Below, piece by piece: positions 32,269-34,357 of a stretch of 64,000 nucleotides of DNA. The notes beneath the pieces were generated by a model, which saw only the letters and a program-made list of their open reading frames with translations, was not told the origin of the DNA and ran no database searches. Made by a program: the position numbers and the translations under genes. Source of the DNA: Anaerolineales bacterium (GTDB taxonomy: Bacteria > Chloroflexota > Anaerolineae > Anaerolineales > Villigracilaceae); the NCBI GenBank assembly GCA_026928255.1, contig JAIXKJ010000008.1, forward strand, positions 535,298 through 599,297, given 5' to 3'. Positions within the stretch are counted from its first letter, which is position 1. Each line of letters begins with the position of its first letter.

Positions 32269-32325
32269 GAAGACCGCTAATTTGCCTGTCTATAAAAATA
32301 TTAAAGTTTTTTCAAAGGACATCCA

Positions 32326-32931
32326 ATGGATTTCAAACTGACGATTTACTCGGACTATATATGACCTTGGTGTTATGTCGGCCAGGGTGTGGTCGAGGGG
32401 CTTAAGCAGGAACATAACGTAGAGGTGGATTGGCGTCCGTATTATTTGCGTCCCGACACGCCGCCCGAAGGCATGGAGCTGCCCGATTACATCAAGCGGG
32501 CGCACGCCAGCGGCTCGGAGGAACGTCTGCGCGCCATTGCTGATTTATACGGCATGACCTACCGCTCGTTGACGCGCATTTACAACACGCGCCTAGCGCA
32601 TGAGGCGACGGAGTACGCGCGTCAAAAAGGGAAAGCCAACGAATTTCATCATGTCGTCTTCCGCAAGGTTTACGCGGAAGGGCAAGACCCTTCGCTGTGG
32701 GCGACTCTGCGCGCCGCCGCCGAAGAGGTCGGCTTAAACGCGGACGACGCGCAAAGCATCGTCGAGAGCGGAGAATACACCGCCGAAGTTGCCGAGCAAG
32801 TTAAACACGCGCAAGCCATCGGCGTAACGGGCGTGCCGACGTATGTGATTAACGACCAATACGCCATCGTCGGCGCGCAACCCTACGAAGCGTTCCAAAA
32901 CGCGCTGGCGCAGATTGCGGGCGGGAAATAA
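32326..32931 (+). CDS. DsbA-family (FrnE-like) oxidoreductase with UGA at the first active-site position (candidate selenoprotein)
   Basis: If UGA at 32362-32364 (codon 13) is selenocysteine, the protein is 201 residues and starts MDFKLTIYSDYI-U-PWCYVGQG. The family consensus here is SDY(V/I)CPWCYVG, so UGA replaces exactly the first Cys of CPWC. AAGGA lies 6 bases before ATG 32326. Downstream landmarks are YYLRPDTPPEG, the family's helical insert, and the cis-proline segment GVPTYVINDQYAIVGAQPYE. A 6-bp hairpin 19 bases after UGA fits the bacterial SECIS pattern well. Starting instead at GTG 32389 would remove the strand and catalytic motif that define the fold. Confidence 0.85.
32378..32396 (+). 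promoter_or_regulatory. Putative bacterial SECIS hairpin in DsbA-like mRNA
   Basis: UCGGCC (32378-32383) pairs with GGUCGA (32391-32396), including one G-U pair, across the loop AGGGUGU. The loop opens 19 bases after the UGA and has G in its second position, in agreement with the bacterial SECIS model as I recall it. Confidence 0.6.
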
Positions 32932-32975: not shown

Positions 32976-33554
32976 TTAGGGTTTCCATTTAATATGACCG
33001 TTAACGCCGTATTTTTCAAATACCGCAAGAATGTCGGCGCAAAAATTCATTATGAATGAGTCGTCTTTAGATTTTGCCAACTCGTACAAACGGATAAACA
33101 TCTTCTTTCCCGTTTCGGTTTGCTTATAATTTTTCTTTCTGAAATTATGTTCGGCGCAAAGCGTTTGACCGTTTACAACTTCTGCTTTGCCGCCTTTATC
33201 TTTTGGCATAATGTGGTCGGCGTGAATTTCCACGCCGTCTTCTCTTCCGCGTCCGCAAATAACGCATTGATAATGGTCGCGGCGAAAAATTTCTTCTTTT
33301 TGTTCCGACGTGAAATTTTCAAGTTCTCGACGAGCCACCGCTTGCGGATCGTATTTATAAACGCCTTTTCTAACTTTGATTAAAACGCCTTCTTGATGCA
33401 ATAAACGAATTGCCCGCCACGGATCTCTGGGCGGCATTTTGTGTTCTGATAGCCACTGCGCCGTTACCCAATCCACGACGGGTCCGTGTTCAAATTCTTG
33501 ATTTGGATGGCTGAAAAAGAATTCAAGAACTAATTCGCGAATGGAACGAGTCAT
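32976..33554 (-). CDS. HNH restriction endonuclease with winged-helix N-terminus
   Basis: A 192-residue nuclease. The N-terminal ~75 residues look like a winged helix ([24 protein letters not shown]). The HNH core has two zinc-type cysteine pairs (CVICG, and C...H in [15 protein letters not shown]) and the catalytic histidine in [15 protein letters not shown]. It overlaps the methyltransferase gene by ATGA. A nuclease coupled to a DNA methylase is a type II restriction-modification pair; the recognition sequence cannot be read from the gene. Codon use is AT-rich relative to neighbours. Confidence 0.85.
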
Positions 33555-34357
33555 GGGGTTTCCTGCAAAGCCTCAAAGGCTTCTTGCGTCGCCGCCGTTA
33601 AATTAATAATTCGTTTCCTTGATAACTCGCAATAATTTTCATCCACTTCAATTCCCACGCCCTTTCTTTTATTTTGAACGGCGGCGATGACCGTCGTGCC
33701 GCTTCCGCTGAACGGGTCGAGAATCGTATCGCCGACGTAACTAAACATCTTCACGCAACGTTTTGGCAGTTCCAGCGGAAACGGCGCAGGGTGTCCGATG
33801 CGTTTTTTGCTTTCGCCGTTAAACGTCCAAACGCCGTTTGTCCATTCCATGAACTCGGTTTTTGTAATGTCCGATTCTTTGCTTCCGCTAACTTTCTTCC
33901 ATTGCTTTTTATAGAGGATGACGATTAATTCAACGGGCGCGATGACGTAAGGGGCGGACGCGCTCATCCACGAACCCCAAGCCGTGCGGCGAGAGATGTT
34001 CCCTTCGTTCCAAATAACGGTGGAATGATATTGAAAACCGATTTCTTTAGCGAGAGTAGTAATATCCGCGCCGACGCTTTGTTGCCCGCCTTTGTTTTTA
34101 TCGAGCGGAATGTTTAAACAAAATCGTCCGTCGTCTTTTAACCAACTGAAACAGCGGCTCATCCATTGCCGAGTAAATTCTAAATAGTCCGCATAAGAAA
34201 TATCGTCTTTGTGGGAATTATATTGAATGTCCACATTATAAGGCGGAGAAGTAACGATTAAATCAATGCTGTTATCTTCAATAAGGCGAGTCGTAATTAC
34301 GTCGTCATTTACGATTTTTGCCGAATTGTTGTCAAAAAAAATATTGGGGTTTGTCAT
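33551..34357 (-). CDS. DNA methyltransferase (beta-class, N4-cytosine/N6-adenine)
   Basis: A 268-residue methylase. The catalytic motif [10 protein letters not shown], comes first and the SAM-binding motif [14 protein letters not shown], is near the C-terminus: the beta-class order. SPPY is shared by N4-cytosine and some N6-adenine enzymes, so the base is undecided. It protects host DNA from the co-encoded HNH nuclease. Transcription runs methylase first, then nuclease, so protection would precede cutting. No strong Shine-Dalgarno is seen before ATG 34357. Confidence 0.92.

Follow-up and report, generated by a model that had tools for sequence, protein, structure and literature searches.

A predicted selenoprotein of the FrnE/DsbA type in Anaerolineae: exchange of UGA and cysteine, and candidate SECIS hairpins at two distances from the UGA

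DsbA-like selenoproteins with a UXXC motif have been recorded from several sources. A 2005 study of the Sargasso Sea described nine such sequences and assigned them to COG2761 (PMC1088965); further members were later listed from bacterial genomes, including Anaeromyxobacter, Desulfovibrio desulfuricans and Desulfotomaculum (PMC1794560), and from the GOS data under the name 'DsbA 1' (PMC2398784). The family was included in a 2022 review (PMC9312934), and it appears in a 2026 review as 'DsbA-like protein form 1', including Asgard archaea (PMC13188914). In Chloroflexi, 3 selenoproteins of 3 families were counted (PMC1794560), and words beginning with Chloroflex- or Anaerolin- are absent from the main text of the 2026 review (PMC13188914). 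Among titles and opening lines of abstracts in the open-licence literature on selenoproteins, FrnE/DsbA, SECIS and Chloroflexi, no report of the family in Anaerolineae was found.

According to published work, the cysteine-containing FrnE of Deinococcus radiodurans (DrFrnE) is a disulfide reductase of the cytoplasm that in vitro also shows isomerase activity and reduces insulin, and its mutant is sensitive to cadmium and diamide (PMC8945050). DrFrnE carries a C-terminal CXXXXC motif that is thought to recharge the active site, and the FrnE proteins of D. maricopensis and S. roseofulvus lack this tail (PMC8945050).

In the present study, a gene of an Anaerolineales bacterium was analysed within a window of DNA, that is, the whole stretch of 64,000 nucleotides examined. 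The protein shares with the known DsbA-like selenoproteins (COG2761/PF01323) the PF01323 domain, a UxxC motif in which U replaces the first cysteine, and a predicted bacterial hairpin after the UGA; to COG2761 itself it is likened by the Pfam family and the UxxC motif alone. The known members come, as far as the sources cited above describe them, from marine metagenomes, bacterial genomes and Asgard archaea, whereas the present ones belong to a class of Chloroflexota and have hairpins at two positions. The selenocysteine (Sec)-containing DsbA-like protein is thus a type already known; the additions made here are the frequency of the UGA form in the class (24 of 26 matching genomes, with 199 sampled) and the two hairpin designs.

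The gene, its reading frame and its protein family

The reading frame opens with an ATG and twelve codons, after which codon 13 is an in-frame UGA in the context SDYI-U-PWC; 188 residues follow, beginning PWCYVG, up to a TAA stop at 32929-32931. The earlier note on this DNA, made from the sequence alone, had described the AAGGA, the ATG, the twelve codons, the UGA, PWCYVG and the 188 clean codons, and every one of these was confirmed to the base. The features, all on the plus strand, are as follows.

32315 to 32319, plus strand: AAGGA, Shine-Dalgarno-like, 6 bases 5' of the ATG; read from the sequence, with a presumed function
32326 to 32931, plus strand: whole gene, 201 residues with UGA taken as Sec; FrnE/DsbA-type thiol-disulfide oxidoreductase by PF01323, the FrnE chains of PDB and the model fold
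32362 to 32364, plus strand: UGA (codon 13), a predicted selenocysteine where CPWC has its first Cys; from UGA/Cys exchange in orthologs
32371 to 32373, plus strand: Cys16, predicted resolving residue and the gene's only cysteine codon; invariant in 23 aligned proteins
32378 to 32396, plus strand: predicted bacterial SECIS hairpin UCGGCC-AGGGUGU-GGUCGA, from comparative evidence in orthologs
32389 to 32931, plus strand: shortened open reading frame from GTG, 180 aa, without the active site, the choice of automatic calling; from the list of open reading frames and database copy P0002
32836 to 32838, plus strand: Pro171 in GVPTYV, predicted to face the active site as a cis-proline; the proline is invariant in 23 aligned proteins

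The protein matched PF01323 (DSBA) with 140.5 bits and carries the N-terminal C/U-P-W-C motif of the FrnE/DsbA type. The nearest solved sequences were the D. radiodurans FrnE chains of PDB (6.5e-28). Moreover, an AlphaFold2 model, built with 23 aligned relatives and Cys in place of Sec, had a mean pLDDT of 94.1, and its best Foldseek matches were five D. radiodurans FrnE structures with TM values of 0.84-0.88, among them 5co3 at 0.88. The DsbA/FrnE-type identity that had been proposed from the letters is therefore upheld by both sequence and fold. In the model, residue 13 lies directly before the first helix (14-18); in the thioredoxin-like fold of the DsbA/FrnE type, the nucleophile sits just before the first helix. 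Pro171 we take to be the cis-proline, a role known from the thioredoxin fold generally.

The D. radiodurans enzyme (DR_0659; PDB 5cnw, 5co3) is thus the closest solved relative in sequence as well as in fold, and there are two differences. Its active site is CP(W/F)C with a cysteine in first position, whereas the present protein has a predicted Sec there; and the C-terminal CXXXXC tail is missing from the present protein, whose sole cysteine codon is that of Cys16. A weaker likeness was noted to NF041057, the Rcas_1661 family of thioredoxin-like (seleno)lipoproteins, which is also a thioredoxin-like (seleno)protein family and matches residues 89-196; membership was rejected at 43.6 bits against a cut-off of 190, and no NF041057 members over the cut-off were found in the host genome.

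Taken together, the gene at 32326-32931 is very probably a genuine selenoprotein gene, predicted from sequence comparison to be read through the UGA as Sec and to encode a likely cytoplasmic thiol-disulfide oxidoreductase of the FrnE/DsbA type with a Sec-Pro-Trp-Cys centre. SelB with Sec-tRNA(Sec) would deliver Sec at codon 13 by binding the hairpin, which begins 13-14 bases behind the UGA. The Sec selenolate may then attack a substrate disulfide, and the mixed selenenyl-sulfide would be resolved by Cys16. The Sec13/Cys16 pair would presumably be recharged by thioredoxin or a small thiol, because the protein has no other cysteine and hence no C-terminal CXXXXC.

In the neighbourhood, an upstream DUF4153-type gene adjoins the FrnE-type gene in 5 of 13 named related loci. 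On the minus strand of the window, at 32976-34357, two genes that share four bases, one with an HNH domain and one for an N6_N4 DNA methyltransferase, face the FrnE-type gene; they are possibly a small restriction-modification pair. In two Mesolinea-titled loci, another DsbA-like open reading frame with a CVWC motif lies downstream of the Cys form (L062 4229-4933, L063 2855-3460); it gave matches in several loci.

Exchange of UGA and cysteine, and the decoding of the UGA

A protein database search returned 2267 relatives, and the best 120 were examined in detail. The copy of the present protein in the database, P0002, is a 180-residue truncation that starts at GTG 32389, which bears out the expectation that automated calling would choose this start inside the hairpin loop and lose the active site. 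Of the best 120 of the 2267 relatives, 66 are likewise 178-182 aa long, begin 3' of the active site and have no PWC part; descent of such short copies from UGA genes was tested for the own genome's copy only. Cysteine stands at the codon in a further 49 of these 120 (48 CPWC and 1 CSWC), so the Cys form is not rare and is well represented among the best 120. In 5 of the 120 (P0006, P0009, P0015, P0024, P0055) tryptophan was found at the codon as WPWC, and these copies may perhaps stem from gene callers set to a code in which TGA means W. Gene calling thereby hides the active site of the enzyme: the own copy and 66 of the best 120 relatives are cut, and 5 have Trp.

Such short copies are what would be seen if the UGA were a true stop, in which case the gene would be a pseudogene or, alternatively, a leader of 12 codons would precede a functional protein begun at GTG 32389, the start that automatic callers chose. 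A relative of the same genus, G001, retains only a remnant of the gene, which also speaks for a true stop. The orthologs argue in the other direction. Among 61 genomes (the own genome and 60 relatives), 47 had a match at a threshold of 1e-10, some of them partial. Within the genus (37 genomes), the UGA form is present in 28 and TGC for cysteine in 2 (G012, G024), and in 7 the gene is absent or a fragment; 7 further genomes of the order, outside the genus, have UGA at the same codon. Furthermore, 39 related loci on named genome contigs from several phyla have TGA in 8 cases and TGC or TGT in 31.

The close orthologs comprised 46 distinct sequences (49 less 3 duplicates), 37 with UGA and 9 with Cys, and the alignment places the swap at exactly codon 13. 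A sequencing error, which the earlier note had considered as a possible source of the UGA, does not explain its presence in 37 distinct orthologs. No other stop stands in the aligned frame of any of these 37, and a frame change disrupts the copy of G017. When all UGA forms were compared pairwise, codons 2-12 showed 2724 synonymous against 1021 amino-acid differences; this excess of synonymous change indicates that the codons upstream of the UGA are coding, and their conservation at the protein level argues against a stop at codon 13. A protein started at the GTG would, according to the model, miss the first strand and the CxxC of the fold. With UGA kept throughout the 37 orthologs and cysteine at the codon in the other 9, a true stop is given very little probability.

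Decayed copies in close relatives had been named beforehand as something that would speak against a selenoprotein. Such copies do occur in G001 and G017, and G032 and G034, of the same genus and at least 95% complete, gave no match to the gene; set against this, 28 of the 37 genomes keep the UGA form. In G001 only the last ~30 residues are left (L101 1540-1629, minus strand), directly behind a 395-aa open reading frame that is ATPase-like in appearance. In G005 and G017, the UGA copy has close by it an extra FrnE-like gene piece that contains an in-frame stop (L092 859-984, L100 891-1016).

A tree of the 46 close orthologs with 4 outgroups required 6 changes of the UGA state, at least 4 of them forced by well-supported branches, with the Cys rows nested among the UGA rows. 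The simplest reading of this tree may be that Sec gave way to Cys several times and that the hairpin was lost in the process. Sec/Cys ortholog pairs, up to 92% identical, offer a route to what Sec gives a disulfide enzyme, and the same pairs a route to the speed of SECIS decay after a switch to Cys.

The host genome (2.7 Mb, 13 contigs, 99.4% complete) contains SelA (436.5 bits), SelB (337.7 bits against a cut-off of 242.25), a tRNA-Sec (74.1 bits, anticodon TCA) and SelD (363.2 bits, with one in-frame TGA). The search for selA, selB, selC and selD that had been proposed as a check thus detected all four, and the absence of selB or selC, which would have told against Sec, is not what the genome shows. 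The UGA form occurs in 35 genomes, 28 of the genus and 7 others of the order, and SelA was found in 34 of them; the remaining one, G038, is 93% complete and gave no SelA match. Across all 61 genomes SelA exceeded the cut-off in 52. As a discriminator of UGA from Cys genomes, the presence of SelA was rejected, since G012 and G024, the Cys genomes of the genus, also have it. The UGA of SelD (L019 2401-2403, minus strand, on contig C2 of the host genome) lies in the context STCAG-UGA-ASK and is itself a predicted Sec codon. As to formate dehydrogenase as another user of Sec, none in the host genome exceeded the FdhA cut-off, and the weaker matches have no internal stop.

The UGA might also be decoded as tryptophan or cysteine, through a changed code or a suppressor, and the Trp at the codon in 5 of the best 120 of 2267 relatives is in keeping with this. 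In the 64-kb window, however, of the 30 open stretches with 300 codons or more, 5 end in TGA, so that TGA is an ordinary stop elsewhere in the window; a tRNA-Sec with anticodon TCA is present with the whole Sec pathway; the alternative residue is Cys in all 9 other close orthologs; and a selected hairpin would be needless. Decoding as Trp or Cys was consequently judged the least probable of the alternatives, and extremely so. Insertion of Sec is the preferred reading, and the Sec-x-x-Cys redox centre proposed in the earlier note is supported as a prediction by the exchange, by the machinery and by a synonymous constraint found in UGA forms only.

The hairpin behind the UGA in close orthologs

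The hairpin consists of UCGGCC (32378-32383), the loop AGGGUGU (32384-32390) and GGUCGA (32391-32396). A 6-bp hairpin with this loop had been described as opening 19 bases after the UGA; the hairpin is present as described, and the 19 bases lead to the loop, the stem beginning after 13. In the consensus fold, 32379-32384 pair with 32390-32395 around a loop GGGUG.

The comparative evidence came from synonymous sites and from pairing. In UGA forms, mean synonymous diversity fell to 0.081 for codons 17-23, the lowest of 106 windows of 7 scorable codons, compared with 0.523 for 103 scorable codons outside this stretch; in Cys forms it was 0.502 in codons 17-23 (5 scorable) against 0.565 elsewhere. 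GTC18, GGC19 and GTG22 are the sole codons for their residues in UGA forms, and several codons serve in Cys forms. All 37 UGA forms, and none of the 9 Cys forms, have the five inner pairs of the hairpin. Likewise, RNAalifold recovered these five pairs, with A-U closing the loop, for the UGA set (-8.4 kcal/mol), and did not find them for the Cys set. Variation within the hairpin among UGA orthologs was limited to G-C and G-U exchange without double changes, and the outermost pair was open in 6 of 37.

Three UGA/Cys pairs, which through their common history are partly dependent on one another, gave a further comparison. L046 (UGA) and L085 (Cys), with 92% identical protein, differ at 6 of 8 comparable codons in 16-24 against 54 of 165 elsewhere, and L044 and L056 at 6 of 7 against 52 of 153. 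L029 and its Cys counterpart L052 differ at 2 of 8 against 49 of 151, so that change was not faster there in this pair. The nucleotides after the UGA thus show selection at synonymous sites, in UGA forms only.

Folding of the single sequence 32362-32410 (49 bases) gave a z of -0.94, and the minimum-energy structure was another hairpin; single-sequence folding was therefore rejected as proof of the hairpin. The other hairpin pairs bases right after the UGA and, judged by eye, needs CCT or CCC at codon 14, which is most often CCG (24 of 37 UGA forms). A 26-base piece reached a z of -3.39, the piece having been selected. Rfam at gathering scores showed no SECIS family and nothing at the element; with a loose threshold no SECIS family appeared either, and the single match was a chance snoRNA (E 6.6). 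The putative SECIS element is accordingly supported by comparison and not by single-sequence folding.

The different minimum-energy fold would fit a selenoprotein whose SECIS lies elsewhere, with the conserved nucleotides after the UGA serving mRNA stability or a rare internal start. The constraint, however, vanishes exactly in the Cys forms, and in the class-level set a hairpin whose loop begins with G lies about as far from the UGA and covaries; a SECIS located elsewhere is considered highly improbable. The close set, together with covariation in the distant set described below, instead bears out comparatively the earlier proposal of a SECIS-like hairpin behind the UGA with a G in its apical loop.

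The class Anaerolineae, a second hairpin design and a second UGA-bearing gene

In a sample of 199 genomes of Anaerolineae, 26 had a match at a threshold of 1e-20 and 173 had none. Codon 13 in these 26 genomes was UGA in 24 and TGC in 2 (G229, G141). In the copy of G143, one TAG also appears in the search alignment.

A distant set of 23 UGA copies (27-34% identity; 18 from the class sample and 5 from the order) revealed a hairpin five bases further on than that of the close orthologs, with its loop, GUU or GUC, 25 bases after the UGA. Its five pairs were formed in 95.7% of cells, and changes on both sides occurred in 4 of 5 pairs, in 12 cells altogether. The covariation score was 0.402 against 0.169 (sd 0.032) in shuffles, with 0 of 500 shuffles as high, a score favoured by the structure having been read from the same 23 sequences in which it was tested. 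Slid versions of the hairpin reached at most 0.141; this control keeps relatedness, whereas the shuffles ignore it. Some of the double changes accompany amino-acid changes, the codons TCC, TTC, TTG and GCC being found at one place.

In a quick tree, the Cys lineages fell between the two UGA clades with 32% support; when the two UGA clades were constrained together, the log-likelihood was 5.25 higher and p-AU was 0.606. On balance, we lean slightly towards the view that the Sec form is the usual form of FrnE in Anaerolineae, an old class-wide selenoprotein whose two clades carry two different SECIS hairpins, not equally far from the UGA, either as two inventions or as one moved element, with repeated Sec/Cys switches at the tips and loss of the hairpin. 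If this is true, the class would provide a natural experiment on the origin and decay of SECIS elements.

The pattern TGACCNTGGTGYTAYGT occurs at exactly two places in the host genome, the present gene and a second DsbA-like UGA gene, and nowhere when read backwards. The second gene, a further predicted selenoprotein with MTEKIPEIWEWAEYY-UGA-PWCYV, lies at 496688-497359 of contig C5 of the host genome (G000:C5; L105 1480-2151). Folding showed no SECIS element for it, its fold being ordinary. Matches to this second gene were found in 4 of the 37 genomes searched; in relatives the codon is Cys in G012 and G010 and UGA in G005. The gene is flanked by a PEP-mutase-like gene and a gene of the carboxymuconolactone-decarboxylase family.
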